From Terrabacter sp. Root181 (GTDB lineage: Bacteria > Actinomycetota > Actinomycetes > Actinomycetales > Dermatophilaceae), in assembly GCF_001428505.1 (NCBI RefSeq), contig NZ_LMHU01000010.1, positions 248,001 through 312,000 on the forward strand: DNA of 64,000 nucleotides, read 5' to 3'. The translations under genes and the position numbers were made by a program. Of the stretch, positions 46,843-61,298 are shown in pieces. The notes under the pieces were generated by a model. The model was not told where the DNA came from, did no database searches, and saw only the letters and a list, made by a program, of their open reading frames with translations. Position 1 is the first letter of the stretch. The number at the start of each line of letters is the position of its first letter.

Positions 46843-46910
46843 GTGCGCCTCCTGCGGGGCTGTTATGGTGCGATCGACCAGTCCGCTTGCAGTCTATGGG
46901 GGTTCGCGCG

Positions 46911-47822
46911 ATGGCAACCCACGAGGCGACGGAGGCCCCCGCAGCGGGGGCCACGGTGCCTCTCGAGGTCCGGATCGGATTCGCGCACGCCTGCCTCCAG
47001 TGGATCGCCGACCGGTGCGGCGCCGACCTGCTGCACGTCAAAGGCGCGGCGCTCGACCCGACACTGGTGCCGGGCCGCGGCTTCTCCGACGCGGACGTGC
47101 TGGCCCGGCCCGAGCACGTGCGGATGCTGCTCGACGAGCTGCGCCACCACGGGTGGGAGCTGATCAACTCCTTCGCGTACGGCTCGTCGTTCGAGCACTC
47201 GGCGACGTTGCGGCACAGCGACTTCGGACTGCTCGACCTGCACCGCATCTACCCGGGCACCGGGCCGACGCCCGGGCGCGCCTTCGACACCCTCTGGGCC
47301 GAGCGCACGACGAGGGTGCTGGGCGGCGTCGAGTGCGCCGTCCCCTCGCGGGACGCCCAAGCCGCACTCCTGCTGCTCCATGCCGCGCGCGGGGGCAGCG
47401 ACCCGAAGGCCGCCCACGACGTCGACTGGGTGTGGACAACCGCCGACCAGGCCCGGCGCGCCCGCATCCTCGACTGGGTCGAGCGGCTCGACGCCGGACT
47501 GGGCTTCTCCGTCATCACGGGCACCCTCGACGACCACCGCGACGACCCGGCCTACGACCTCTGGCGCGTCGCGTCCCGGGGCGGCACCCGCATGGACGAG
47601 TGGCGGGCCCGGGTCCGGGCGGCGCACGGGCTGCGTGCAAAGCTCACGGTCGCGTCACGGTCGGTGCTCGTCAACGTCGAGCACCTGACGATCGTGCGCG
47701 GCCGACCGGTGACGCGCCGCGAGATCGTGGCCGAGTTCTTCGGCCGGCCGGCACGCGGCCTGCGGGAGCAGGTCGCGCGTCGCGCCCGTGGTTCCCGGGC
47801 GACCGGGGAGCGAGAGCAGTGA
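46911..47822 (+). CDS. Nucleotidyltransferase-like protein (NTP_transf_5 type)
   Basis: 303 residues resembling the uncharacterised nucleotidyltransferase family seen in polysaccharide loci beside PqqD-like and HprK-like genes: LHVKGAALDPTLVPGRGFSD, then DADVLARPEHVRMLLDEL (the DxD of nucleotidyltransferases) and FGLLDLHRIYPG. ATG 46911 follows GGGGG at 8 bases; in-frame ATG 46896 is an alternative. Its stop overlaps the PqqD-like gene. What it modifies is unknown. Confidence 0.72.
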   Translation: MATHEATEAPAAGATVPLEVRIGFAHACLQWIADRCGADLLHVKGAALDPTLVPGRGFSDADVLARPEHVRMLLDELRHHGWELINSFAYGSSFEHSATLRHSDFGLLDLHRIYPGTGPTPGRAFDTLWAERTTRVLGGVECAVPSRDAQAALLLLHAARGGSDPKAAHDVDWVWTTADQARRARILDWVERLDAGLGFSVITGTLDDHRDDPAYDLWRVASRGGTRMDEWRARVRAAHGLRAKLTVASRSVLVNVEHLTIVRGRPVTRREIVAEFFGRPARGLREQVARRARGSRATGEREQ

Positions 47823-48115
47823 CCGCCGCCTACCGGCCCGGACCGGATGCAGGGGTCACCGTGAGCGACGACGGACAGTGCGTCTACGTCGCACACCTGC
47901 CCGGCGGACCGATCGTCGTGCTCGAAGGTGCGGCTGCGCTGATCTGGGTCGAGGCGACGACGGAGCCCGCGACCGGCTGGGTCGCTCGCGTCGCCGAGGC
48001 CTTCGGGCAGTCCGAGGAGGTCATCGCCGCCGACGTCGCGGCGTTCGTCGCCGACCTGGGCGCGCGGGATCTGCTCGTGACTGCACCGACGGAGGCGCCC
48101 GGCACGCCGGGCTGA
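47819..48115 (+). CDS. PqqD-like small protein, copy 1
   Basis: 98 residues from GTG 47819 (overlapping the preceding stop by 4 bases). YRPGPDAGVTVSDDGQCVYVAHLPGG, VVLEGAAALIWVEAT and VAAFVADLGARDLLV follow the PqqD pattern: short beta strands, a (G/S)xxxxIW-type centre and a C-terminal helical region ending in a hydrophobic strand. PqqD proteins chaperone peptides for modifying enzymes; here the partner is the nucleotidyltransferase-like gene. Confidence 0.7.
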   Translation: MTAAYRPGPDAGVTVSDDGQCVYVAHLPGGPIVVLEGAAALIWVEATTEPATGWVARVAEAFGQSEEVIAADVAAFVADLGARDLLVTAPTEAPGTPG

Positions 48116-48165: not shown

Positions 48166-49587
48166 TCAGGCGTGGCGCTTGGCCTGTGCTCGCCTCTCGC
48201 GGCGGCTCGGCTTCGCGTCGGCGCCCCGGTTGTAGCCGTAGTAGCCGTAGCGGTGCGCGGTCGACGAGCCGGCCGACACCATGTTGAGCGCGAAGCCCGC
48301 GACCGGGGCGTCCACCGTCTCGAGGGACTGGACGGCGCTCGCGAGGTCGCGCTTCTTCGTGCGCTCGGCCCCGACGACCATGATGAGCCCGTGCGTCAGC
48401 TTGTTGATGAGCACGGCGTCGATGACCGGGACGACCGGGGGGCTGTCGACGAGGATGAAGTCGTAGTCGTGCGACAGCTTGCCGAAGAGGATCTCCATCG
48501 GCTCCGAGCCGAGCAGCTCGCTCGGGTTGGGCGGGACGGGCCCGGCCGGCAGCACGTGCAGCGTCGTCTCGCGCCACCGCTGGACGACGTCCTCGGGGTC
48601 GGCCTGACCGAGCAGGAGGGTGGTCAGTCCGAACGAGCCGTCGAGACCCATCGTGCTCGCGACCGAGGGGTTGCGCAGGTCGCCGTCGATGAGCAGCACC
48701 TTGGACCCGGCGTCGGACATCGCGAGCGCGAGGTTGATCGTCGTCGTCGTCTTGCCCTCACCGGGCACCGACGACGTGACGACGAAGGAGTGGCCGGCCG
48801 TGGTGACGTCGACGAAGAGGATGTTGGTGCGCAGGCGACGGATCGACTCCGCGTGCCGCCCGTGCGGGTCGCTCTCGAGCGAGAGCAGGCCGCTCTTGAC
48901 CGACTTGACCATCGGGATGTCACCGAGGATCGGACGGTTCGACAGGGCCTTGACGTCGTCCTCGGTGCGCACCTTCGTGTCGAAGGTGTGTCGGAGTAGC
49001 GCGAGGCCGATGCCGAGGGCCAGGCCGAGCAGGGCACCGAGCATGAGGTTGCGCTTGGCGTTGGGGGACACGGGCTCGGTGGGCACGGTGGCCGGCGCGA
49101 TCGGCGTGGCCTCGACCGACTGCCCGTTGGCGGCCAGGAGCGGGGAGAACTTCTTCGTCGCGACCTCGGCGAGCACGGGGCCCGCCGTGTTGGCGATGCG
49201 GGCGATCAGCTCCGGGCTGCCCCCGGTGGCGGTGATCGTCATGACGTTGGAGGTCTGACCCACCTCCGCGGACACCGCGATGGGCGTCCCGGGCTCGAGA
49301 CCGAGTCGGTCGCGCAGGGGCTCGATGACGGACGGCGCGTTGAGGACGTCGATGTACCTGGCCAGGTCGTCGGCGCTCAGGGCGTAGGTCACGACCTGGT
49401 TGTTCGTGCCCGCCCCGGGCGGCTGCGTGGCGGACAGGAAGATCTTCGCGCTGGCGGTGTAGACGGCAGGCGTCACCATCGTCTGGACCGCTGCGGCCGC
49501 GATCACGGCGAGCAGGCTCACCGCGATGACCCGCCACCGTGCCCCCAGAACGCCCAGGAACTCCCGGAACGTCACTTTGCCCCCCAC
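48166..49587 (-). CDS. Wzz/BY-kinase: polysaccharide co-polymerase with tyrosine autokinase domain
   Basis: 473 residues in one chain: two membrane helices (about 17-37 and 178-198) flanking an extracytoplasmic Wzz domain, then the kinase with Walker A SSVPGEGKTTTTINLA, Walker A' LLIDGDLRNP, Walker B FILVDSPP and a C-terminal tyrosine cluster HRYGYYGYNRG. Sets chain length in Wzx/Wzy pathways and cycles by autophosphorylation. Start GTG 49587; GTG 49575 (VTFREFLG) is an alternative. The probable partner phosphatase is at 32.6 kb. Confidence 0.93.
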   Translation of the reverse strand: MGGKVTFREFLGVLGARWRVIAVSLLAVIAAAAVQTMVTPAVYTASAKIFLSATQPPGAGTNNQVVTYALSADDLARYIDVLNAPSVIEPLRDRLGLEPGTPIAVSAEVGQTSNVMTITATGGSPELIARIANTAGPVLAEVATKKFSPLLAANGQSVEATPIAPATVPTEPVSPNAKRNLMLGALLGLALGIGLALLRHTFDTKVRTEDDVKALSNRPILGDIPMVKSVKSGLLSLESDPHGRHAESIRRLRTNILFVDVTTAGHSFVVTSSVPGEGKTTTTINLALAMSDAGSKVLLIDGDLRNPSVASTMGLDGSFGLTTLLLGQADPEDVVQRWRETTLHVLPAGPVPPNPSELLGSEPMEILFGKLSHDYDFILVDSPPVVPVIDAVLINKLTHGLIMVVGAERTKKRDLASAVQSLETVDAPVAGFALNMVSAGSSTAHRYGYYGYNRGADAKPSRRERRAQAKRHA

Positions 49588-49690
49588 GCCTCAACTCGAC
49601 AGTACGTGCGGCGATCCTCCCATATCATCCAAGGGGTTGTGCCGAGTCGCAGACATCCGGGGCTCGGCACGGGGAGAGGGGTGAGTGGTC

Positions 49691-51712
49691 ATGTGGGCAC
49701 TGCGCGTGTCCCACAGCGCCGTCGTCGACGCGTGGCGTGAACGGGAGCGGGCTCTGCGTCGCCTGGGCCACCGCGTCGACGTCGTGTCGGCTGCCGCGTG
49801 GTCGGAGGGTGGGCGCCGCGTCGCGCTGTCGGTGCGCCCTGACGAACCCGTCGTCCCCGCACGGACCATCGGCTCCCACCCGGCCCTCTTCCTCTACGAC
49901 CCGCGTCCGCTGTGGCGGGCTCTCGGCCGGCCCGTCGACGTCATCGACGTCCACGAGGAGCCCTTCGCCCTCGCGACCGCCGAGGTGCTGCTGCTCCGGT
50001 GGCTGCGCCGTCAGCGCGCCCCGTACCTGCTCTACTCCGCCCAGAACCTCGACAAGCGCCACCCCGTCCCGTTCCGCTGGTTCGAGCGGATGGCGCTGAG
50101 GCACGCGAGCGGCCTCAACGTGTGCAACGAGGCCGCCGGGCACATCGCCGAGCGCAAGGGCTTCCCGGGTCGGGCCCGCACCATCGACCTCGGCACCGAC
50201 CTCAACGTCTACACACCACCCGCGTATGCCGTCACGCCTCGCGAGGTGCCCGTCGTCGGGTTCGCGGGACGCCTCGACGCGGCCAAGGGGGCCGACGTGC
50301 TCCTGCGCGCAGTGGCCCTCGAGCCGGCCGTACGCGTACGCCTCGCCGGTGACGGACCCGAGCGGCACCGGCTGGTCGAGCTGGCGGAGGGGCTCGGCGT
50401 CGCCGACCGCGTCGAGCTCCTCGGCGCGCTCGCACCCGAGGGGCTGCCCGACTTCTACCACTCCCTCGACGTGCTGGTCGTCCCATCGCTGACGACCCCC
50501 TCCTGGGTCGAGCAGTTCGGCCGGGTCGCCCTGGAGGCCATGGCCTGCGGCACCCCCGTCGTGGTCAGCGACAGCGGGGCGCTGCCCGAGGTGGTCGGCG
50601 AGGCCGCCATCGTCGTCGCCGAGGGCGACGCCGCCGAGCTCGCCAAGGCGATCGGAGCCGTGGTGCACGACCCCGACGTCGCGCAGAGGCTGCGTGCCGC
50701 GGGGCTCGCCCGGGCTGCGACGACGTCCTGGGACCGAGTCGCGGTCGAGCACGACGCGATGTACCGCGCCGCGACGAAGCAGTGGTCCACGGACGTCACC
50801 GACGAGCGTGGGCTCGAGGTCGTCGTCGTCGCGTACGGCCGGCCCGAGCTGCTCGCCTCGGCGCTCGAGCCGCTCGGCGCGCTGTCGGTGACCGTCGTCG
50901 ACAACTCGTCGTCACCTGACGTGCGGGCCGTCGCCGAGGCCGCCGGGGTCCGCTACGTCGACCCGGGGCGCAACGGCGGCTTCGGCGCCGGTGTCAACGA
51001 GGCGCTGCGACGTGTCGATCCGCGCGCCGACGTGCTCCTCGTCAACCCGGATGCCGTCGTCGGCACGGGAGACGTCGCGCTGCTGCGCGCCGCCCTGCTC
51101 GCCGAGCCCGACCTCGCGAGCGTCGGACCGACACAGGTCGATGCCACCGGCACACCGGCGCGCGTCGAGTGGCCCTTCCCGTCGCCCCTCGGGACGTGGG
51201 TCGAGGCGGCCGGACTCGGCCGCCTGAGGCGCAGCCGCTACGTCATCGGCGCGGTGCTGCTGCTCCGCCGCGAGGCCATCGAGCACGTCGGGCCTTTCGA
51301 CGACGAGCGCTTCTTCCTCTATGCGGAGGAGACCGACTGGGCGCAGCGCGCGAGCCTGCTCGGTTGGCGGCACGCGGTCGTGCCGGCTGCACGAGCCACG
51401 CACGTGGGTGCGGCCACGAGCACCGACCCGACCCGGCGTGAGGGGCACTTCCACGCGGCCCAGGAGGTCTATCTCCGGAAGCACTTCGGCGCCCTCGGCT
51501 GGCAGGTGGCCCGCGCTGGGCAGGTCACCGGCTCGACCGTGCGCGGAGTCCTGCTCCGTGGTGAGCGTGGGCGCTCCGCCCGATCCCGGGCGCGGCTCTA
51601 CCTCGCCGGTCCCGTCCGGTCCGAGGTGCGTCCCGACGACGCGCGGCGCCCTGCGCCGACGGGCACCGCCCGTCCCGACACCGCGACGCCCGTCCGGTCG
51701 GAGGCGTCGTGA
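49691..51712 (+). CDS. Two-domain glycosyltransferase (GT4-GT2 fusion)
   Basis: 673 residues. Residues 1 to about 365 are GT4 (GFAGRLDAAKGADVLLRA, EQFGRVALEAMACGTP). From about 372 a GT2 domain follows: LEVVVVAYGRPELLASAL, VTVVDNSSSPDVR, PGRNGGFGAGVNEALR, LVNPDAVVG and FFLYAEETDWAQRA, typical of rhamnosyltransferases of the WbbL/GlfT type. The tail after 610 is disordered. ATG 49691 has a GAGAGGGG tract upstream; GTG 49685 is possible. The fusion may add two sugars in sequence. Confidence 0.88.
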   Translation: MWALRVSHSAVVDAWRERERALRRLGHRVDVVSAAAWSEGGRRVALSVRPDEPVVPARTIGSHPALFLYDPRPLWRALGRPVDVIDVHEEPFALATAEVLLLRWLRRQRAPYLLYSAQNLDKRHPVPFRWFERMALRHASGLNVCNEAAGHIAERKGFPGRARTIDLGTDLNVYTPPAYAVTPREVPVVGFAGRLDAAKGADVLLRAVALEPAVRVRLAGDGPERHRLVELAEGLGVADRVELLGALAPEGLPDFYHSLDVLVVPSLTTPSWVEQFGRVALEAMACGTPVVVSDSGALPEVVGEAAIVVAEGDAAELAKAIGAVVHDPDVAQRLRAAGLARAATTSWDRVAVEHDAMYRAATKQWSTDVTDERGLEVVVVAYGRPELLASALEPLGALSVTVVDNSSSPDVRAVAEAAGVRYVDPGRNGGFGAGVNEALRRVDPRADVLLVNPDAVVGTGDVALLRAALLAEPDLASVGPTQVDATGTPARVEWPFPSPLGTWVEAAGLGRLRRSRYVIGAVLLLRREAIEHVGPFDDERFFLYAEETDWAQRASLLGWRHAVVPAARATHVGAATSTDPTRREGHFHAAQEVYLRKHFGALGWQVARAGQVTGSTVRGVLLRGERGRSARSRARLYLAGPVRSEVRPDDARRPAPTGTARPDTATPVRSEAS

Positions 51713-53055
51713 GCAGTCTGTTCCCCGAGCGGCTCCGCGGTCCGGGCCGCACCGACCTCCTCGCGCAGGTCGGGTTCACACTCGCTGGTGTCGCCCTCGT
51801 CGCGCTCGTCGGGCGTCTCGCGGTCACCATGCCCGAGGCCGCCGTCATCATCGCCGTCGCTGTGCTCGCCATCGGAGTCACCGCGGTCCAGCCGGGGCTC
51901 ATCCCGCTTGCCGTCCTGCCCCTGTTGCTCGTGGTCCTGCGCATCGGCAGTGGGGGGATCGACTTGTCCCTGTCTGACTTCGCTCTCGCCGCTGCGGTGA
52001 TCCCGGCGCTCTTCCTCGCCAAGCGCCCGTTCTCATCGGGGCTGCGCGCCGTACTCTGGGCCTCGGCCCTCTACCAGTTCGCCACACTCATCAGTGTCGT
52101 CAACAACCCGTACGCCGCCAATGCCGTCGAGTGGGCGCACGCATGGGTCCTGGTGGCCGGGTCCCTTCTCGTCGGCTGGGCCGTCGGCGCCAACGGCCAT
52201 GGCCGGGCCGGTGTGCGTCTGCTCGTCGGCACCATCGCGGTTCTGGCTCTCATCACCGTCATCGAGGGCAGCGTGCACCTTGCCCAGGGAGACTTCTCAG
52301 CGGTCTACCCCACCTTTCCCTACGGCATGCACAAGAACTTCGCCGGCACGGTGTGTGCCACCGGAGCGGTCATGGTCTACGCCAGGCCGACGTGGGCGGG
52401 CATCAACCGGCGATGGTCAATCCTGCTCATGGCTCTGATGCTCGCCGCCGTGCTGTTCACACAGTCGAGACAGGCGGTCATCGGTCTCGTGGCGGCGGTC
52501 TTCGTCCTCGTGCTCCGGTCGAAGACCGATCGCAGGAGGTCGAAGCTCGTGCTGCTCCTCGCCGCCCCACTCGTGCTCTTCGTGACCAACCTCGTGCAGG
52601 ACCAGGTCCAGTCGGGCAACCAGTTCAACTCGGTCTTCCAGCGTCTGACGTGGTTCCAGGACTCGATGACCGTGTGGTCGTCAGACCCCTGGTTCGGCGT
52701 CGGGCTGCGCTGGTGGTACACCGACAGGTTCCCGTTCCAGTTCCAGCCGCCCAACGCCGAGATCGAGGTGCTGACCTCCGTCGGGGTCGTCGGGCTCGCC
52801 GCCTTCGTGCTGCTCATGGTCGTCTCCCTGCGAGTGGCGTGGCGGCTCGACCCGGCGTATGGCTCCATGGCGGTTGCCGTGCTCGTGTCGCGCGTGGTTC
52901 AGGGCCAGTTCGACCTGTTCTGGTCGGCGGTCCAGGGCTCCCTGCCCTTCGTCGTTCTCGGGCTCTGCCTGGGTGCGAGCTGGCATGCGGAACGAGAGAT
53001 CGCGACGACCACCGATGTCGCCATCAGCTCTCGTCTACCGGTGGGCACGGCGTGA
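51709..53055 (+). CDS. Wzy-like O-antigen ligase/polymerase-family membrane protein
   Basis: 448 residues with about 11 membrane helices. The Wzy_C/O-antigen ligase pattern is visible: FPYGMHKNFAGTVCA in the large periplasmic loop, FTQSRQAVIGLVAAVFVL, and the segment DPWFGVGLRWW followed by NAEIEVLTSVGVVGLAAF. Likely polymerises repeat units outside the membrane. GTG overlaps the preceding stop by 4 bases, and the following GT4 start by 4 bases. Confidence 0.87.
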   Translation: MSSLFPERLRGPGRTDLLAQVGFTLAGVALVALVGRLAVTMPEAAVIIAVAVLAIGVTAVQPGLIPLAVLPLLLVVLRIGSGGIDLSLSDFALAAAVIPALFLAKRPFSSGLRAVLWASALYQFATLISVVNNPYAANAVEWAHAWVLVAGSLLVGWAVGANGHGRAGVRLLVGTIAVLALITVIEGSVHLAQGDFSAVYPTFPYGMHKNFAGTVCATGAVMVYARPTWAGINRRWSILLMALMLAAVLFTQSRQAVIGLVAAVFVLVLRSKTDRRRSKLVLLLAAPLVLFVTNLVQDQVQSGNQFNSVFQRLTWFQDSMTVWSSDPWFGVGLRWWYTDRFPFQFQPPNAEIEVLTSVGVVGLAAFVLLMVVSLRVAWRLDPAYGSMAVAVLVSRVVQGQFDLFWSAVQGSLPFVVLGLCLGASWHAEREIATTTDVAISSRLPVGTA

Positions 53056-54209
53056 CGACCATCGTCCAGATCACACCCGAGATCGGTCCGGGCACGGGGG
53101 TGGGGGCGGTGGCGTACCACCTCGAGCAGGAATGGCTGCGGCTCGGCGTCGACGTCCGGCGGTTTACTCTCGATGAGGCGGGCGGCGCCTGGCTCTCGAC
53201 ACCCCGCGGGGGCGTGTCGGGGCGGCTGGCGCTTGTCGGGCGCGTGGTCTGGTTCTCGACGGTGGGCACGGCCCGCGCGCGTCGTTACCTGCGGGACCAT
53301 CCGGAGCAGCTGTCGGTGTGCCACAACGACGCGGTGGCTGGCGACGTCTACGTCAACCACGGGATCGTCCAGGCCGCCATGCGGGCGCGTGGCCACCACT
53401 GGGTCCGTATGGCCCGCAACCCCCTCCACCTCTTCACGACGACCCGTGACCGGCGCCGATACTCGCACGCAGGCAGCCACCGGGTCGTCGTCAACCTCGT
53501 CACCGAAGAGGAGCGGCTGCTCCGCGAGTCCTACCCTCGCCTCGCGATCCCGACCGTCGTCATCGGCAACGGTGTCGACGTCGAGCGCTTCCGGCCGCCG
53601 ACTCCCACCGAGCGGGACGCGGCCCGTCGTGAGCTGGGGCTCGGCGGCGACGACCGGATGGTGCTCTTCATCGGCAACGAGTTCGGGCGCAAAGGCCTGC
53701 CGATGCTCGTCGACGCGGTCGCGCGGCTAGGGCCAGAGGTCCGTCTGGTGGTCGTCGGGGGCACTCCTGACATGATCGCGTCGGAGGCCGCCCGGGAGCC
53801 CGCCACCGCGCTTGCCCATCGCCTGGTCTTCGCCGGCGCCCATTCCGACCCCCGGCCCTGGCTCCACGCCGCGGACGCCCTCGCCATGCCGAGTGCCTAC
53901 GAGTCCTATGGGCTCGTCGTCCTCGAGGCGCTCGCCTGCGGCGTTCCTGTCGTCGCCACCCCCACCGGCTGCGTCCCCGACGTCGTCACCGACGGTGTCA
54001 ACGGTGCCGTCGTCGGGGCCGACCCCGACGAGCTCGCCGCAGGTCTCGCGCGCGTCCTCGCACTCGACCCGGCTGCTGCGGCTGCGGCGGCGCGGGAGAG
54101 CGCGGAGCGGCATTCGTGGGCCACCGTCGCCCAGCGCTATCTCGACCTGCTGACCGGACTGCGTCCGGGGCGCTCCACGTCGGCCGGGGTCGGCGGGGCA
54201 GCGGCGTGA
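53052..54209 (+). CDS. Glycosyltransferase family 4
   Basis: 385 residues: IVQITPEIGPGTGVGAVAYHL (N-terminal glycine loop), VVIGNGVDVERFRP, MVLFIGNEFGRKGLPMLVDA and PSAYESYGLVVLEALACGVP with the E(x7)E donor site. GTG 53052 overlaps the Wzy-like stop. The sequence continues a translationally coupled run of GT genes. Confidence 0.88.
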   Translation: MTTIVQITPEIGPGTGVGAVAYHLEQEWLRLGVDVRRFTLDEAGGAWLSTPRGGVSGRLALVGRVVWFSTVGTARARRYLRDHPEQLSVCHNDAVAGDVYVNHGIVQAAMRARGHHWVRMARNPLHLFTTTRDRRRYSHAGSHRVVVNLVTEEERLLRESYPRLAIPTVVIGNGVDVERFRPPTPTERDAARRELGLGGDDRMVLFIGNEFGRKGLPMLVDAVARLGPEVRLVVVGGTPDMIASEAAREPATALAHRLVFAGAHSDPRPWLHAADALAMPSAYESYGLVVLEALACGVPVVATPTGCVPDVVTDGVNGAVVGADPDELAAGLARVLALDPAAAAAAARESAERHSWATVAQRYLDLLTGLRPGRSTSAGVGGAAA

Positions 54210-55225
54210 GGATCCTGCACGCCATCCGCTCCGACGCGTTCGCAGGCGTCGAGAGCCATGTCGCCCGACTGGCCAGAGCGCAGCTCGCAGCCGGGGACGA
54301 GGTCCTCGTGCTCGGCGGTGACCCCGACCGGATGACCGACGCCGCCGGACCCGGTGTCCGCACCCGTCCTGCGGCCACCGTCACCCAGGTGCTCGCGACC
54401 GTGCGCCAGTGGGCGAGCCATGCTGACGTCGTCCATGCCCACATGACCGCAGCCGAGATCGCCTGTGCCACAGCGCTGGTCGGGGTCCGTACGCCCCTCG
54501 TCGTCACCCGGCACTTCGCCCGCGACCGCGGCAGCAACCGCGTCTCGGCCGTCGCGGCGGCAGCCGCCGCCCGCCGGGTCGACGCCCAGATCGCGATCAG
54601 TCACTACGTGGCCGAGATGATCGCGGGCGCGAGTGTCGTCATCCATCCCGGGGTCGACTCGACCACGAGCACCCGCACCGCGCAGGACCGCGACCGCGTC
54701 GTGCTCGTGGCCCAGCGGCTCGAACCCGAGAAGGACACCGACGTGGCGCTCCGCGCGTTCGCGGCCTCTGGCATCGCCGCGGACGGGTGGCGCCTCGAGG
54801 TCGCCGGTGACGGTGCTGAGCGCCGGCGGCTGACGGAGCTCGCGGACGATCTGGGCATCGCCGAGGCGACCTGCTTCCTGGGGCACCGCAGCGACGTCCC
54901 GGCCCTCATGGAGCGCGTTGGCGTGCTGCTCGCGCCCTGCCAGATCGAGGGCCTCGGACTCACGGTGCTCGAGGCGATGGCCGCCGCCCTGCCGGTCGTC
55001 GCGGTCGGCGCTGGCGGCCACCTCGAGACCGTCGGAGCCGTTGCCGGGGCCGCACTGCACCCGCCCGGCGACGCCGACCGGGCCGGAGAGCTGCTCCGCG
55101 AGCTCGCGGGGCACCCGGAGCGTCGCGACGGGTACGCCGCGGCGCTGCAGGGTGTCCAGCGCGACCGCTTCACGCCCGCGCACCAGGCGCAGGAGACCGC
55201 GGCGGTCTACCGGGGCGTGGTCTGA
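54206..55225 (+). CDS. Glycosyltransferase family 4
   Basis: 339 residues: RILHAIRSDAFAGVESHVARL, VHAHMTAAEIACATAL, VVLVAQRLEPEKDTDVALRA and APCQIEGLGLTVLEAMAAALP. GTG overlaps the previous stop by 4 bases and the stop shares one base with the next ATG (TGATG). Specificity unknown. Confidence 0.88.
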   Translation: MRILHAIRSDAFAGVESHVARLARAQLAAGDEVLVLGGDPDRMTDAAGPGVRTRPAATVTQVLATVRQWASHADVVHAHMTAAEIACATALVGVRTPLVVTRHFARDRGSNRVSAVAAAAAARRVDAQIAISHYVAEMIAGASVVIHPGVDSTTSTRTAQDRDRVVLVAQRLEPEKDTDVALRAFAASGIAADGWRLEVAGDGAERRRLTELADDLGIAEATCFLGHRSDVPALMERVGVLLAPCQIEGLGLTVLEAMAAALPVVAVGAGGHLETVGAVAGAALHPPGDADRAGELLRELAGHPERRDGYAAALQGVQRDRFTPAHQAQETAAVYRGVV

Positions 55226-56376
55226 TGGACCTCGTCGTCACCTCCCTCGAGGCCTGGGACCGCGTGTGGCGTCGCAACCAGCACCTCGTCGCCGGCCTGC
55301 TGCGCCGCGACCCCGGCCTGCGAGTGCTCTTCGTGGAGCCGGCCACCGACCCGCTCCATGCCGCCCTCGGCGCGAGTCAGCCGAGACTCGGTCGGGGACT
55401 CCGTGCCGGGCCGCCGCTCGACGGCGTCCGCGCCGAGGCCCTGTGGCTGCTCGAACCCACGAAGTGGCTGCCCCGCCGGGTCGACCGTCGGCTCGACGAG
55501 CGTTGGGCCCGACAGGTGCTGCGCGCCACGCGCACTCTCGACATGACAGATCCGCTGCTCTGGGTCAACGACCCCACGGGGTCGCTGCTCGTCGAGGCCA
55601 CGCAGTGGCCATCTCTCTACGACGTCACCGACGACTGGACCCTCGCCGAGCGATCGACGGCCGAGACCGAGCGGGTGCTTGCCCAGGAGCAGGTCCTGCT
55701 GACCCGGTGCGACGAGGTGGTCGTGTGCTCGCCCGCGCTCGCAGCGAGCAAGGGGGCGCTGCGGGAGGTGACGCTCGTGCCCAACGGCGTCGACACCGCC
55801 GCCTATCGCGTCGCGCACGACCGACCGACCGACCTGCCCGACGGACCGGTGGCGGTCTACGTCGGGACCCTTCACGGTGACCGGCTCGACATCGACCTCT
55901 GCGTCGCCACGGCGCATGCGCTCGACGTGACCCGCCACCTCGTGCTCGTCGGACCGAACGCGCTCGCGCCTGAGCAGCGTTCGCGTCTCGACGATGCCGG
56001 TGTGGTCATGCTCGGTGCCCGACCCAGCTCCGAGGTGCCGGCCTACGTCCAGCACGCCGACGTGCTCGTCGTGCCCCACGTCGTCACCCCGTTCACGGAC
56101 AGCCTCGACCCGATCAAGCTCTACGAGTACCAGGCCGCGGGTCGGCCCGTGGTCTCGACGCCGGTGGCCGGGTTCCGTGACGTCGTCGACGAGCTCGTCA
56201 CCGTCGCCGGGCACGAGACCTTCGCGGCCGCCGTCGTCAGGGCGCTCGCGGACGCCGGTGGCGACGGTCACGCGGCGACGGACCGGGAGCGGGCGGCGGA
56301 CGCCGACTGGGCCCGCCGGGTCGACCAGGTCGACGTGGTCCTCCAGCGGCTGCGCGAGCGCGGGGCCGTCGAGTGA
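55225..56376 (+). CDS. TuaH-like glycosyltransferase
   Basis: 383 residues. PLLWVNDPTGSLLVEA, SLYDVTDDWTLAE, CDEVVVCSPALAASKG, LVPNGVDTAAYRV and LDPIKLYEYQAAGRPVVSTP match the GT-B family that includes TuaH of teichuronic acid synthesis. The donor-site segment DPIKLYEYQAAG holds the conserved Glu. Coupled on both sides. Given ugd in the window, transfer to or of a uronic-acid-containing unit is possible. Confidence 0.82.
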   Translation: MDLVVTSLEAWDRVWRRNQHLVAGLLRRDPGLRVLFVEPATDPLHAALGASQPRLGRGLRAGPPLDGVRAEALWLLEPTKWLPRRVDRRLDERWARQVLRATRTLDMTDPLLWVNDPTGSLLVEATQWPSLYDVTDDWTLAERSTAETERVLAQEQVLLTRCDEVVVCSPALAASKGALREVTLVPNGVDTAAYRVAHDRPTDLPDGPVAVYVGTLHGDRLDIDLCVATAHALDVTRHLVLVGPNALAPEQRSRLDDAGVVMLGARPSSEVPAYVQHADVLVVPHVVTPFTDSLDPIKLYEYQAAGRPVVSTPVAGFRDVVDELVTVAGHETFAAAVVRALADAGGDGHAATDRERAADADWARRVDQVDVVLQRLRERGAVE

Positions 56377-57152
56377 CGGCCCCGGACGTCGACGAGGCCG
56401 TGCTGCACGTCGCGGCGCTCGGGGCGACGATCGCGATCGCGCTCCCTGACCACCGACTCCGGGCACCCGCTCGACAGGCGTGGTCGGCGTGCCGCACGCC
56501 GCCCGTCGTCGAGTGCCCCTCGGTGACGGCGCCCGCGCTGGTGGTGGACGCCGGTGCGGACGACATCGCCCGGGCCCTCCAGTCCCTGACGCAGCTCGTC
56601 ACCCGTGCGGCGATCCTGGCCCGTGCCGGCGAGCTGATGATGTTCCACGCCTCCGCGCTCAGCGACCAGCGGTCGGGTGCGACGATCGCGATGGTCGCAC
56701 CCGGAGGCACGGGCAAGACGACGCTCGTGCGCACGCTCGGTCCGGGCCGGGGCTACGTCACCGACGAGACCGTCGCGGTTGCTGCGGACCGTTCCGTCGC
56801 CGCGTACTCCAAGCCCCTGTCCGTGCGTCGGACGGAGCCCGGGCAGCCCAAGGACGAGGTCGCACCTGCCTCTCTAGGACTCCGACCACCGCAGGTGCAG
56901 CCGTGGCTCGCCGGGATGGTGCTGCTGCGACGGGACCGCGAGGCCGGCGAACCTGTGGTCGTCGAGCAGGTCGACCTGCTCGACGCCCTCGTCCTGCTGG
57001 CCCCGGAGTCCTCCTCGCTCGCGTCGTTCGACCGCCCGCTCCATCGGCTGGCCGACCTCGTGGAGTCGGTCGGTGGGCTGCGACGGGTCCGCTACCACGA
57101 CGCGGCTGACGTGGAGCCGGTCGTCGCCGACGTCCTCGGGAGGTCGCGGTGA
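56373..57152 (+). CDS. HprK-like kinase-related protein
   Basis: 259 residues with an HPr-kinase-like core: LMMFHASALSDQRSGATIAM leads into the P-loop APGGTGKTTLVRTLG (110-117), then TDETVAV as a Walker B-like segment. The order (His-containing strand, P-loop, acidic strand) is that of HprK/PEP-carboxykinase-like folds. No PTS HPr is nearby, so the target is not sugar-PTS. It sits between a glycosyltransferase and a PqqD-like gene with 4-base overlaps on both sides. Such HprK-related proteins are known beside PqqD-like genes in polysaccharide loci, but their substrate is not established. Confidence 0.78.
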   Translation: MTAPDVDEAVLHVAALGATIAIALPDHRLRAPARQAWSACRTPPVVECPSVTAPALVVDAGADDIARALQSLTQLVTRAAILARAGELMMFHASALSDQRSGATIAMVAPGGTGKTTLVRTLGPGRGYVTDETVAVAADRSVAAYSKPLSVRRTEPGQPKDEVAPASLGLRPPQVQPWLAGMVLLRRDREAGEPVVVEQVDLLDALVLLAPESSSLASFDRPLHRLADLVESVGGLRRVRYHDAADVEPVVADVLGRSR

Positions 57153-57490
57153 GCGACACGGAGCCGGTCCTCGGGCCCGACACCGTCCTGGTTCGGGGCG
57201 ACCTGCTCGACACGTACTCGACCGACGACGGAACGGTCGTCCTCGTCGCAGGGGCCGCGGGGCACCGCGTCGTGCGGCTCTCGCCCCTGGGCCACGCCGT
57301 CCACTCTGCCGTCGGACCGGGGCGGACGCTGGCCGAGCTCGAGGTCGAGCTCGTGTCTCTCCTGGGGCAGCCACCGACCGGGGACCTGTCTGACCTGGTC
57401 CGCTCAGCCGTGCACTCGCTGGTCGACGAGGGGGTCGTCGTCGCAGGTCAGGTGCCCAAAGACGACAATTCGGGCGACATCCGATCGTGA
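57149..57490 (+). CDS. PqqD-like small protein, copy 2
   Basis: 113 residues from GTG 57149, overlapping the HprK-like stop. TVVLVAGAAGHRVVRLSPLGH, AVGPGRTLAELEVELVSLLG and LVRSAVHSLVDEGVVV follow the PqqD plan: strand, a hydrophobic centre, helix, and a final helix ending in a hydrophobic strand. It is weakly similar to copy 1 at 47.8 kb and may serve the same or a parallel system. Confidence 0.7.
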   Translation: MSDTEPVLGPDTVLVRGDLLDTYSTDDGTVVLVAGAAGHRVVRLSPLGHAVHSAVGPGRTLAELEVELVSLLGQPPTGDLSDLVRSAVHSLVDEGVVVAGQVPKDDNSGDIRS

Positions 57491-57598
57491 TCTCCCTGGA
57501 GGGTGCCAAGGTGTGCGATTTCCGGCATCGAGGGCGCCCTGTTCCGGTATGTTGACGAAGCACTTGGGGGTTTCAGTCATCGAGTGGGGGATACATAC

Positions 57599-58195
57599 AT
57601 GTCACACAATCACGGTGCCGACTCGGCGCCTCCGAGCCGTCGCTCGGTCGTCAAGGGCGCGGCTTGGGCCGTGCCTGCCGTCGTGGTTGCCGGGGCTGCG
57701 CCCACGGTCGCCGCGTCAGCAGGGTTCCTGACCTTCAGCGGCAACGCGTGCAAGCTTCCCGGCAACTCCCAGAGCGTCTTCAAGGGCTACGTCTTCGAGC
57801 TGTTCGCCAACAACGCGGCGGGACCTCTGCCCCGAGATGCCATCACGGAGATCACCGGCATCAGCGTGTCCGGCTTCCCCGACCTCGGCGCCTTCGCCGT
57901 GGTCGTCAAGGGCCCCAACGACTCGTGCTCCTGCGGCCCGTGTCCCGGGACGGTCCTGGCCCACACCTTCTGCACCGCAGACGGCCACCTCAACCAGCGC
58001 ATCCTCATCTTCACCAGCGCGGACGTCACGGGCAACAGCGCGAACGCGACGGTGACGGTGACCTACCGTCAGTTCGACTGCAACAACACCAGCACGTGCG
58101 GGGCACCCACCAACGGGAGCGCCTCGACCGTCATCTCGAGCACCCCGCCGGTTCAGGGCCCGTGCACCATCGTGGACCCGACGCCGCCGACCTGA
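57599..58195 (+). CDS. Tat-exported cysteine-rich protein of unknown function
   Basis: 198 residues. The N-terminus PPSRRSVVKGAAWAVPAVVV is a twin-arginine signal (Arg14-Arg15) with likely cleavage after VAASA. The mature part, about 155 residues, has 8 Cys, four within SCSCGPCPG and QFDC, and many Asn/Thr/Gly, with a beta-rich look. No known domain. Translation starts at ATG 57599, 8 bases after GGGGG; TTGACG at 57552-57557 is a candidate -35. The 109-base gap from the PqqD-like gene suggests its own promoter. It may be the exported partner or substrate of the HprK/PqqD module, or simply a neighbour. Confidence 0.72.
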   Translation: MSHNHGADSAPPSRRSVVKGAAWAVPAVVVAGAAPTVAASAGFLTFSGNACKLPGNSQSVFKGYVFELFANNAAGPLPRDAITEITGISVSGFPDLGAFAVVVKGPNDSCSCGPCPGTVLAHTFCTADGHLNQRILIFTSADVTGNSANATVTVTYRQFDCNNTSTCGAPTNGSASTVISSTPPVQGPCTIVDPTPPT

Positions 58196-58226
58196 GGCAC
58201 CAGGGGCCCTCGGGCACCAGGTTCAG

Positions 58227-58265
58227 GACGCAAGCCGCAACCACCCCGTGGTCGCGGCTTGCGTC
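58227..58265. terminator. Bidirectional stem-loop terminator
   Basis: Perfect 12-bp arms GACGCAAGCCGC / GCGGCTTGCGTC around a 15-base loop, between the convergent Tat-protein and MauE-thioredoxin genes. Confidence 0.85.
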
Positions 58266-58299
58266 GTGTCCGCGGCCACTCGGTCGCGACCCGCGAGCG

Positions 58300-59286
58300 T
58301 CACGACGTCATGAGACCCAGCTCGACGCGGATGTCGTCGACGAAGGCGGTCACGTTCGCGGCACCGACGACGGGCCCACCGGCCAGCAGACCGTCGGCCC
58401 CCAACAGCACGGCGCTCGGCGTCCCACGCAGGCCGAAGGACTCGTAGACCAGGCCCTCGGTGTCGTGCAGGCTCTGCGGCTCGACGGGCGAGGCCAGGGC
58501 CGTCTCGTCTGGCGCCGACCGCACGACGAGGCGCACGTCGAGAGCAGGGAGGTCGTCTCGCCAGCCCGGTGCTCCCGCGATGACGTCCTGGCAGCTGGCG
58601 CAACCCTCTGACACGTAGAGGAGCAGCTGCGGGCGTGCCTCGCTCAGGCGCCGCAGGTGGGTGACCGAGCCGTCGCCCAGCGTCACCGGCAGGGCGGGTG
58701 TGCGCGTGCGGACGTAGTCGCCCTCCTCGTCGGTGTGGGCCGGCGGGTCCTCCCGCCGCTCCGGTGCCGTGGCCGGCCCGGCGACGAGCCACGTCGTCAC
58801 GGCGGTGGCGAGGGCCGCGACGAGCCACCACCACGGCAGCCGCTCGTCGGCGACGCGCGCCGCCACCGATGAGCCCTGGGTCGCCACCCCGAGCGTGACG
58901 GCCGCCAGGGCCACGAGCCAGGCGTTGCGCACGACCGTGCGACGTGTGATGCGTCCGGGCGCGAACTCTCCGAAGCAGGCACACTCGACGTCCTCGTCGA
59001 AGGCGAGGGCACGCACCACGAGCACGAGGTATGCCGTGAAGAGCAGGACCGCGGCCACGCCGGCGACCACGCCCACGGGCCCGCCCACGAGGAGCAGGAC
59101 GACGGCGAGCAGCAGCTCACCCCACGGCAGCGCCTCGACGACGAACCTCCCGGAGAGCGGAGCCGGCACACGGAGGTCACGGAAGGCCTCGGCCGACGCG
59201 CTGGGCGAGCGCAGCTTGCCGACCGCGCTGACGACGAGGACGACCGCGAGGATCACGGGCGCGAGGGCGAGGGCATCGGTGGGCAC
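58300..59286 (-). CDS. MauE/DoxX-like membrane protein fused to a thioredoxin-like domain
   Basis: 328 residues. Residues 1-190 hold about four to five membrane helices with the MauE-type DVECACFGEFAPGRIT segment. From about 215 a thioredoxin-like domain carries the redox pair in YVSEGCASCQDV and GTPSAVLLGADG. Such proteins move electrons across the membrane to support disulfide formation or reduction. GTG 59286 with TAGAAT 5 bases upstream. It is convergent with the Tat-exported eight-cysteine protein, an attractive client. Confidence 0.8.
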   Translation of the reverse strand: MPTDALALAPVILAVVLVVSAVGKLRSPSASAEAFRDLRVPAPLSGRFVVEALPWGELLLAVVLLLVGGPVGVVAGVAAVLLFTAYLVLVVRALAFDEDVECACFGEFAPGRITRRTVVRNAWLVALAAVTLGVATQGSSVAARVADERLPWWWLVAALATAVTTWLVAGPATAPERREDPPAHTDEEGDYVRTRTPALPVTLGDGSVTHLRRLSEARPQLLLYVSEGCASCQDVIAGAPGWRDDLPALDVRLVVRSAPDETALASPVEPQSLHDTEGLVYESFGLRGTPSAVLLGADGLLAGGPVVGAANVTAFVDDIRVELGLMTS

Positions 59287-59291
59287 GTCGC

Positions 59292-59297
59292 ATTCTA
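59292..59297 (-). promoter_or_regulatory. -10 hexamer TAGAAT of the MauE-thioredoxin gene
   Basis: On the minus strand TAGAAT ends 5 bases before GTG 59286. A GTATGCCG site lies just upstream at 59308-59314. Confidence 0.5.
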
Positions 59298-59386
59298 GGC
59301 AGGGGACGGCATACCACCGGGGGTGATCGGTCGATCCGACGGGGCGGACGGCGACCTGTCGGTCGCCTCCTGCACAATCGGGGACC

Positions 59387-61298
<1,912 letters not shown>

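Follow-up and report, generated by a model that had tools for sequence, protein, structure and literature searches.

In lasso-peptide gene clusters, as outlined in PMC8498205, a homolog of HprK phosphorylates the precursor and a nucleotidyltransferase puts a hexose on the phosphate. The tailoring set of paeninodin and pseudomycoidin, in the accounts consulted, comprises a kinase (K), a PqqD-like protein (B1, an RRE) and a nucleotidyltransferase (N), and the PqqD-like protein PadeB1 is reported to bind its own leader at about 5 nM (PMC5067487). Two other systems invite comparison. In PEP-CTERM/EpsH (exosortase), as presented in PMC1569441, a short tag is carried by diverse proteins, one cognate enzyme follows it by phylogenetic profile, and there are ties to exopolysaccharide. 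NapD, as portrayed in PMC3712460, is a cytoplasmic reader of a twin-arginine signal before export.

Here we describe a kinase and PqqD-like pair (KIN-PqqD) that is coupled to an unusual Tat signal (GAAW-Tat); no description of this signal with a dedicated pair was found in the literature searched. The three enzyme types of the lasso set are also present at the locus, N being compared by type alone, and, going by those accounts, the two systems are alike in having precursors with a conserved leader and a variable core, and a recognition domain that is either separate or fused. Unlike in the lasso set, the proposed substrates are whole Tat precursors with the Tat signal as the "leader", and unlike for the lasso kinases, the passengers show no C-terminal Ser rule. 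Whereas PEP-CTERM/EpsH is described as a C-terminal tag with a membrane enzyme in bacteria with an outer membrane, the present system has an N-terminal Tat signal and a predicted cytoplasmic kinase and PqqD-like protein in actinobacteria. The proposed role of KIN-PqqD is like that of NapD, but NapD, as described, serves the NapA reductase, whereas one KIN-PqqD pair matches many unrelated passengers and includes a kinase domain. The view of the first-pass annotation that no such modification step had been described inside a polysaccharide locus broadly agrees with the literature searched, but the same enzyme set is known from the accounts of lasso-peptide clusters.

Results

The window, by which we mean the whole analyzed stretch of 64,000 nucleotides from Terrabacter sp. 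Root181, holds the following features.

46887..47822, plus strand: NTP_transf_5 nucleotidyltransferase (PF14907, E 6e-10) with KG and D-x-D motifs retained; its start is likely ATG 46911
47819..48115, plus strand: PQQ1, a second PqqD-like protein (PF05402, E 1.2e-6), overlapping the nucleotidyltransferase by 4 bases
48166..49587, minus strand: Wzz/BY-kinase type polysaccharide chain-length protein (TIGR01007, E 1e-50)
49685-51712, 53052-54209, 54203-55225 and 55225-56376, plus strand: glycosyltransferases (profile matches)
51709-53055, plus strand: Wzy/O-antigen-ligase-like protein, among the glycosyltransferases of 49685..56376
56373..57152, plus strand: KIN, HprK-like P-loop kinase, 259 aa (motifs, alignment of relatives)
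57149..57490, plus strand: PQQ2, PqqD-like (RRE-type) protein, 113 aa
57599..58195, plus strand: Cys8, predicted Tat-exported eight-cysteine protein, 198 aa, of the CK-x-PG domain family
57599..57715, plus strand: GAAW-Tat signal peptide (RR 57638-57643; GAAWAVP 57656-57676; cleavage site inferred by eye)
58300..59298, minus strand: MauE protein (PF07291, E 6e-20), convergent with the Cys8 gene; start 59298 guessed

The trio on which the first-pass annotation focused is borne out by the ORFs: KIN and PQQ2 overlap by four bases (GTGA), and the gene for the eight-cysteine Tat protein is next. Each of the three ORFs has a third-position G+C of 84-88%, the Tat ORF being measured from 57503, a mechanically assigned GTG; its start is most likely ATG 57599. 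From there the signal reads MSHNHGADSAPPSRRSVVKGAAWAVPAVVVAGAAPTVAA. By eye it has the twin arginine, hydrophobic core and AxA site of a Tat substrate (RRSVVKGAAWAVPAVVVAGAAPTVAA), and export is predicted; eight cysteines lie downstream. The C-terminal stretch of MauE looks thioredoxin-like by eye (a CASC motif, in a stretch with no Pfam match). Among 20 window ORFs (35466-59898), Pfam gave no lasso cyclase (Asn-synthetase-like), transglutaminase-like B2 or leader peptidase.

A kinase and PqqD-like unit

The active site of HprK/PEPCK-type enzymes includes a P-loop together with a His and an Asp. KIN has a Walker A motif (APGGTGKTT), an acidic T-D-E-T motif and a KPLSV motif, and the alignment of 26 relatives retains H92, GxxGTGKTT, T-D131-E and K147-P148, with D131 and K147 invariant and H92 and K115 conserved in at least 90%; the structural model of the kinase is too poor to use (pLDDT 44). 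The best 60 matches of the KIN profile among PDB sequences are P-loop proteins only. The best named relatives are HprK-related kinases A and B (TIGR04352 and TIGR04355), with KIN far under their curated cut-offs wherever scores are given: the window protein matches TIGR04352 at E 0.006 and 15.7 bits against a cut-off of 200 bits, and three relatives, at 21-24 bits, also fall below it. At E<=0.001, 20 of the 26 aligned relatives match TIGR04352 and five match TIGR04355. Because the window protein matches neither PF07475 nor TIGR00679 (HPr(Ser) kinase), and each is matched by one relative in 26, we regard KIN as HprK-like rather than HprK; judged by sequence, the resemblance to HprK is distant. 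The HprK-like label given earlier is thus weak for the window protein itself and firmer for its relatives.

Similarly, PQQ2 alone has no match in a Pfam search but is recovered by its family profile, and 14 of 23 family members match PF05402 at E<=0.01. Against the PDB, the family profile finds the lasso PqqD chaperone 9x90 (E 5e-4), TbiB1 (5v1u, 1e-3) and PqqD (3g2b, 2e-3), matches that place the family in the predicted PqqD/RRE fold; the earlier label therefore holds at the level of the family. A PqqD-like match is present at 117 of 120 KIN loci and is fused to the kinase at 75, which supports the proposal that the two form one unit.

The cysteine-rich neighbor

Across 26 aligned CK-x-PG sequences, C12, K13, P15, G16, K23 and S108 of the mature part are invariant. 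The best PDB match of the profile is only at E 0.12, and we do not rely on the top Foldseek match (DsbD N-terminal domain, E 0.018, TM about 0.3) of the all-beta model of the mature domain (pLDDT 55). The order kinase, PqqD-like, Cys-rich Tat gene recurs within the genus: seven genomes have KIN, and six of them, that of the window among them, show it, while in G148 the contig stops just past the kinase. Three more genera share this order: g40 (two genomes), g29 (one) and g45 (two). The linked protein of the window's genus and of three others carries 7-10 cysteines, and MauE adjoins it. MauE was found at 10/10 loci scored as having at least seven cysteines vs 2/29 others (L051 counted with its eight-Cys copy), and it may act as an accessory that forms disulfides in the Cys-rich variants.

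Neither the domain nor its cysteines are what KIN loci share. CK-x-PG matches lie within 5 kb of KIN in 17 of 52 cases and many KIN neighbors lack the domain, so it was rejected as sole partner; the exported Tat neighbors carry 0 to 10 cysteines past the signal and often have unrelated mature parts, which rules out cysteines as the shared feature. The three genes of the first-pass annotation are real and linked, with Tat proteins as recurrent partners, but its folded Cys-rich protein does not define the module: the Tat signal is the common feature, and the genes of most listed carriers lie at other places in the genome.

An unusual Tat signal co-occurs with KIN

The element that recurs at KIN is the Tat signal RRx(V/I)(V/A)xGAAWxxP (GAAW-Tat). 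The density of W-x-x-P Tat signals falls from 11.3 per 100 kb at distances up to 1.5 kb from KIN to 0.3-1.0 beyond 4.5 kb (129 loci, of which L181 and L182 were taken knowing of a CK-x-PG match nearby), and the refuting test set in the first-pass annotation therefore did not go against it; 39 loci have one within 1.5 kb, four of them (L100, L102, L107, L112) representing another Tat family of ~620 aa. GAAW-Tat lies within 3 kb of 13/75 fused vs 25/45 split KIN genes, and many fused genes are not near any Tat gene. In genus g62, KIN-PqqD is followed in four cases by a tandem array of five Tat genes. A comparison of 17 of these 20 proteins shows signals that are 66% identical and mature parts that are unrelated (median Z 0.5 over 29 pairs), a combination that resembles RiPP leaders and cores.

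Within the family, the GAAW-Tat profile matches 79/88 genomes with KIN vs 1/61 without, or 64/73 vs 1/61 once the 15 genomes contributing profile rows are removed. These totals leave out three weak matches (G031, G035, G064; E 0.001-0.01) of an initial 83. Two matches of a separate search (G094, G122:C4), in which the RR part is not covered, likewise do not enter the tally of signals. By genus, the signal is found in 34/34 with KIN vs 0/19 without, and when KIN was permuted within genera, nine of which hold both states, the observed overlap was never reached (0/200,000). Counting by a coarser DNA pattern separates the two groups less sharply (69/88 vs 7/61). Among genomes from the remaining families of the order, 40/40 with KIN vs 1/40 without have the signal at E<=1e-4; at the E 1e-6 used in the family set, 39/40 do (G365 is at 4.8e-5). 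As cases we took, from 48 KIN genomes of those families, the 40 with E below 1e-8, eight weak KIN matches being excluded, and the controls are the 40 lowest-numbered genomes without any KIN match; ten cases gave profile rows, and the remaining 30 all match. KIN lacks the signal in nine family genomes (G017, G072, G074, G077, G089, G098, G109, G115, G119), and the signal is found without a KIN match in G118 (83% complete) and G159.

Matching family genomes hold 1 to 16 GAAW-Tat matches at E<=0.01. Among the 150 matches listed, 35 are within 20 kb of KIN and 115 are not; the coupling therefore acts in trans. Moreover, at least 40 of the 58 KIN genomes without a listed cis match have GAAW-Tat. 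The tag and enzyme thus behave as a sorting pair, the profile of the tag following KIN while the passengers are unrelated, with the exceptions being 9/88 and 1/61 of the family genomes. Beyond RR, A, W and P, the signal alignment has no fully invariant column and no invariant Ser/Thr (RR, W and P were required at row selection), and the passengers show no obvious common acceptor site and, by eye, no common C-terminal Ser.

Discussion

The coupling of GAAW-Tat and KIN-PqqD is well supported: the two enzyme domains are fused or encoded by overlapping genes, the signal is enriched next to them, and signal and pair co-occur genome-wide. This co-occurrence in the surveyed actinobacterial genomes suggests an undescribed system that recognizes exported proteins and probably modifies them before export. 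As the best explanation, held at about even confidence, we propose that KIN and PQQ2 are one cytoplasmic enzyme unit acting on GAAW-Tat precursors before export, with Cys8 as the local substrate. The PqqD-like domain would bind the signal (RR-x-hydrophobic-x-x-G-A-A-W-x-x-P) as an RiPP recognition element binds its leader, and the HprK-like domain would spend ATP on the passenger, most likely in Ser/Thr phosphorylation, with Tat export afterwards. At polysaccharide loci like this one, NTP_transf_5, which has a PqqD partner of its own, may afterwards attach a sugar to the phosphate, as reported for pseudomycoidin, and the exported proteins could thereby be glycan-bearing or glycan-binding surface proteins. 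NTP_transf_5 is encoded at 21/38 KIN loci that have GAAW-Tat no farther than 3 kb away, vs 9/82 of the remaining KIN loci. In Cys-rich passengers, MauE may assist disulfide formation outside. Several results count against this explanation: no obvious acceptor site or C-terminal Ser is common to the passengers, nine KIN genomes lack the signal and two have it without a KIN match, the DNA-pattern count is less sharp, many fused KIN genes lie apart from Tat genes, and the likeness to HprK is distant.

A more elaborate version, which we put forward only tentatively, is a general pathway in which a leader directs the modification of entire exported proteins: the PqqD-like domain would read GAAW-Tat, the kinase would phosphorylate the passenger and NTP_transf_5 would add a sugar to that phosphate. 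The resulting phosphoglycosylated proteins, once secreted, would prime or anchor the exopolysaccharide.

It is also conceivable, if rather unlikely, that KIN-PqqD is a chaperone that gates export, binding the Tat signal in an ATP-driven cycle of hold and release, as thought for NapD and the NapA signal, and leaving the passenger unmodified. The signal is indeed the conserved element, no passenger motif or conserved acceptor residue is seen, and a small protein that binds a Tat signal has a precedent in NapD as described in PMC3712460. However, putative HprK-type catalytic residues are retained across the aligned KIN family, and in the lasso clusters, as described, the set of kinase, PqqD-like protein and nucleotidyltransferase modifies peptides.

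Coupling could instead be indirect, with KIN-PqqD working elsewhere in exopolysaccharide synthesis and GAAW-Tat marking matrix proteins gained and lost with the same lifestyle. All 80 signal-positive family genomes do have a TIGR01007-type BY-kinase by E cut, four of these matches (G068, G103, G129, G135) being weak and probably under the tool's own cut-off. Yet among BY-kinase genomes (110 by our E cut, 105 by the search tool's count) GAAW-Tat is present in 1/23 without KIN vs 79/87 with it, which contradicts a polysaccharide locus as sufficient cause. Among 150 listed BY-kinase sites, a Tat gene lies within 20 kb at 19/30 with KIN within 20 kb vs 17/120 without, kinship being ignored. Furthermore, the signal rather than the passenger tracks KIN, and G040 and G138 keep the signal though their fused KIN adjoins a ClpB-like or Fpg/Nei-type gene (L079, L124). 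We consider indirect coupling doubtful.

That the module serves to modify one small folded Cys-rich protein fits the loci with 7-10 cysteines plus MauE in the window's genus and three others, but is very improbable given the 0-6 cysteines of Tat proteins linked at other loci and the 35 of 52 CK-x-PG matches not within 5 kb of any KIN.

A recognizable class of export signal is now tied to a dedicated KIN-PqqD enzyme pair. Provided that Tat signals are indeed read by the PqqD-like domain, modification guided by a leader would extend beyond small peptides, and many unannotated kinase-PqqD genes would gain a testable function. Should the phosphoglycosylation reading be true, RiPP logic would apply to the secretome as well as to peptides, and a single enzyme pair would act in trans on many proteins that are unrelated to one another.

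Results

The kinase gene and its PqqD-like partner

The set of three genes studied here sits at the end of a polysaccharide locus of the window, which holds glycosyltransferases, a flippase-like protein, a Wzy-like protein and a Wzz/BY-kinase chain-length protein (BY-kinase); a genome of the same genus (G136) carries the same locus. The features are:

56373-57152, +, HprK-like P-loop kinase gene (KIN), first of the three-gene set at 56373-58195
57149-57490, PqqD-like gene
57599-58195, +, Tat-type protein (Cys8)
downstream of the Cys8 gene and convergent, MauE protein, with a C-terminal tail that is thioredoxin-like by eye
46887-47822, NTP_transf_5 nucleotidyltransferase of the same polysaccharide locus, with a 4-base overlap with a second PqqD gene

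The first-pass annotation had described a kinase-like and a PqqD-like gene overlapping by 4 bases and followed by a cysteine-rich exported protein; the overlap is present, and the product that follows is of Tat type with eight cysteines past its signal. Searching with the window kinase, we found relatives in 88 of the 149 genomes of the family. Of the 103 merged matches we took 100 with 7 kb of flanking sequence on each side, leaving out the window's own, a broken match in genome G119 and a weak match in G039; a further 20 loci came from the order outside the family. A PqqD-like profile match lies inside 117 of these 120 loci, and in 75 of the 120 within the kinase ORF itself; KIN and PqqD are one unit. 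The PqqD-like profile reaches solved RiPP recognition elements (RREs), namely the lasso PqqD chaperone 9x90, TbiB1 and PqqD. Residues conserved in the KIN alignment of 26 sequences include H92, D131, K147 and those of the Walker A motif, and the named relatives of KIN, HprK-related kinases A and B, are distant.

Some fused KIN-PqqD genes lie away from polysaccharide genes, adjoining by Pfam a ClpB-like gene (locus L079) or an Fpg/Nei-type DNA glycosylase (L124), and many other loci have ORFs of matching length (about 850 and 286 aa) beside fused KIN; in such surroundings the fusion resembles a core gene. Of the loci seen, L181:1697-13364 packs the system most densely, with two KIN-PqqD fusions, two genes with the GAAW-Tat signal (RRx(V/I)(V/A)xGAAWxxP), NTP_transf_5, two BY-kinases and MauE, all within 12 kb.

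A constant signal on unrelated passengers

The mature part of the Cys8 family has an invariant C-K-x-P-G, K and S (alignment A1, 26 sequences). The family has 52 matches in 37 of the 149 genomes, 17 of them (in 16 genomes) within 5 kb of KIN; across the order it was matched in 11 of 297 genomes, three of these outside the family, two of which (G177 and G259) have the match within about 2 kb of KIN. At other KIN loci, however, the adjoining Tat proteins are poor in cysteines or lack them altogether, and their mature domains are different. In five genomes of the window's genus (L144-L148), a second cysteine-rich copy with the Cys8-type domain (CK-x-PG) is encoded at a long distance from KIN or on a different contig; it has 10 cysteines in the four genomes for which the gene was recovered. 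Beside fused KIN in L100, L102, L107 and L112, Tat proteins of about 620 aa from a different family recur, with the signal RRAALR(A/V)GG...TAW(T/S)xP.

In four loci of genus g62 (L184, L185, L189 and L190), five GAAW-Tat genes follow KIN-PqqD. When 17 of the 20 proteins were compared within their loci (29 pairs), the signals shared a mean identity of 66%, and the mature parts 21%, with a median Z of 0.5 against shuffles and one pair above 5.

MauE is present in 9/9 loci scored with an adjacent protein of at least seven cysteines vs 3/30 others; since all nine come from three genera, this no more than suggests an accessory dedicated to cysteine-rich passengers. The cysteine-rich Tat gene, MauE and TrpS stand together at the locus end in the window (57599-61298) and in L153 (genome G015), a grouping kept even with KIN, PqqD and NTP_transf_5 16 kb upstream.

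The constant element of KIN neighbourhoods is the Tat signal. Over 129 KIN loci, uncorrected for kinship among genomes, the density of RR..W..P signals per 100 kb falls from 11.3 in the 1.5 kb nearest KIN to 4.0 at a distance of 1.5-3 kb and to 0.3-1.0 past 4.5 kb, and looser Tat motifs drop from 11.8 to 4.4-5.5 per 100 kb. Distant KIN relatives were matched in 9 of 246 genomes of the phylum, two of them in the family; outside the order, six of eight such loci have a Tat-like ORF within 1.5-kb flanks, five of the six with W-x-x-P. Tat-like genes adjoin distant relatives at L203-L206, L209 and L210, and five of these six loci show a variant signal of RRDFLKR...VWAAP type.

KIN predicts the signal genome-wide

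A degenerate DNA pattern of the signal gave 2.18 matches per genome with KIN and 0.51 without (reversed control, 0.94 and 0.61); after translation filtering and addition of protein matches, 69/88 and 7/61 genomes were positive. Because chance matches are expected for so short a pattern, we built a profile (A6) from 38 signals of KIN-adjacent genes, RR and W..P being required for the choice of each row. It matched 83 of the 149 genomes at E<=0.01, or 80 once three weak ones were dropped: 79/88 with KIN vs 1/61 without. By genus the counts are 34/34 vs 0/19; nine genera hold both states, and permuting KIN within genera reached the observed overlap 0 times in 200,000. The nine KIN genomes lacking the signal include G119, whose kinase match is weak (E 3.5e-5) with two stops, and the single reverse exception, G118, is 83% complete. 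Outside the family, the signal was found in 40/40 KIN cases vs 1/40 controls at E<=1e-4, the exception being a control with the signal (G159); one case is weak (G365, 4.8e-5). These results show that KIN-PqqD presence predicts the GAAW-Tat signal class genome-wide, on unrelated passengers that sometimes adjoin it.

Removing the genomes that contributed rows to the profile (fifteen in the family, ten of the outside cases) left 64/73 vs 1/61 and 30/30 vs 1/40. Adjacency to KIN does not carry the co-occurrence, because 115 of the 150 signal matches listed are not within 20 kb of KIN (two of the 115 in G118), and at least 40 of the 58 KIN genomes without a cis match among the matches listed have the signal. 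Nor does polysaccharide gene content alone predict it: among genomes with BY-kinase, the signal occurs in 1/23 without KIN vs 79/87 with it. In the family set, with BY-kinase called at our own E-value cut, no genome without BY-kinase was found to have the signal; in four of the genomes with the signal the BY-kinase match is no more than weak, and the tie of the signal to polysaccharide-making cells is therefore strong rather than absolute.

Discussion

PqqD-like RREs are described as binding leaders (PMC5067487). Lasso precursors are reported to be phosphorylated by HprK homologues, after which a nucleotidyltransferase puts a hexose on the phosphate (PMC8498205), and lasso clusters recurrently hold K, PqqD and an uncharacterised nucleotidyltransferase (PMC7533575). 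We infer as the probable mechanism that the PqqD-like domain would read the GAAW-Tat signal, that KIN would phosphorylate the passenger and that NTP_transf_5 may glycosylate it. Where GAAW-Tat lies no more than 3 kb from KIN, NTP_transf_5 (PF14907) is present in 21/38 loci, vs 9/82 of the other KIN loci; the pseudomycoidin nucleotidyltransferase is a candidate member of PF14907. The main rival to modification of the passenger is that KIN-PqqD could be purely an export-gating chaperone, like NapD (PMC3712460).

In the open PMC literature, which leaves most subscription papers outside, we found no paper joining an HprK-related kinase with PqqD, none joining HprK, the Tat pathway and exopolysaccharide, and none joining RRE, PqqD and a Tat signal; three papers mention both twin-arginine and PqqD. 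The nearest concept is PEP-CTERM/EpsH, a pair of tag and enzyme that is reported likewise from a phylogenetic profile and likewise tied to exopolysaccharide (PMC1569441). As far as these literature searches go, the components are of known kinds, and what is new is their combination, in which a kinase-PqqD has a cognate Tat signal.
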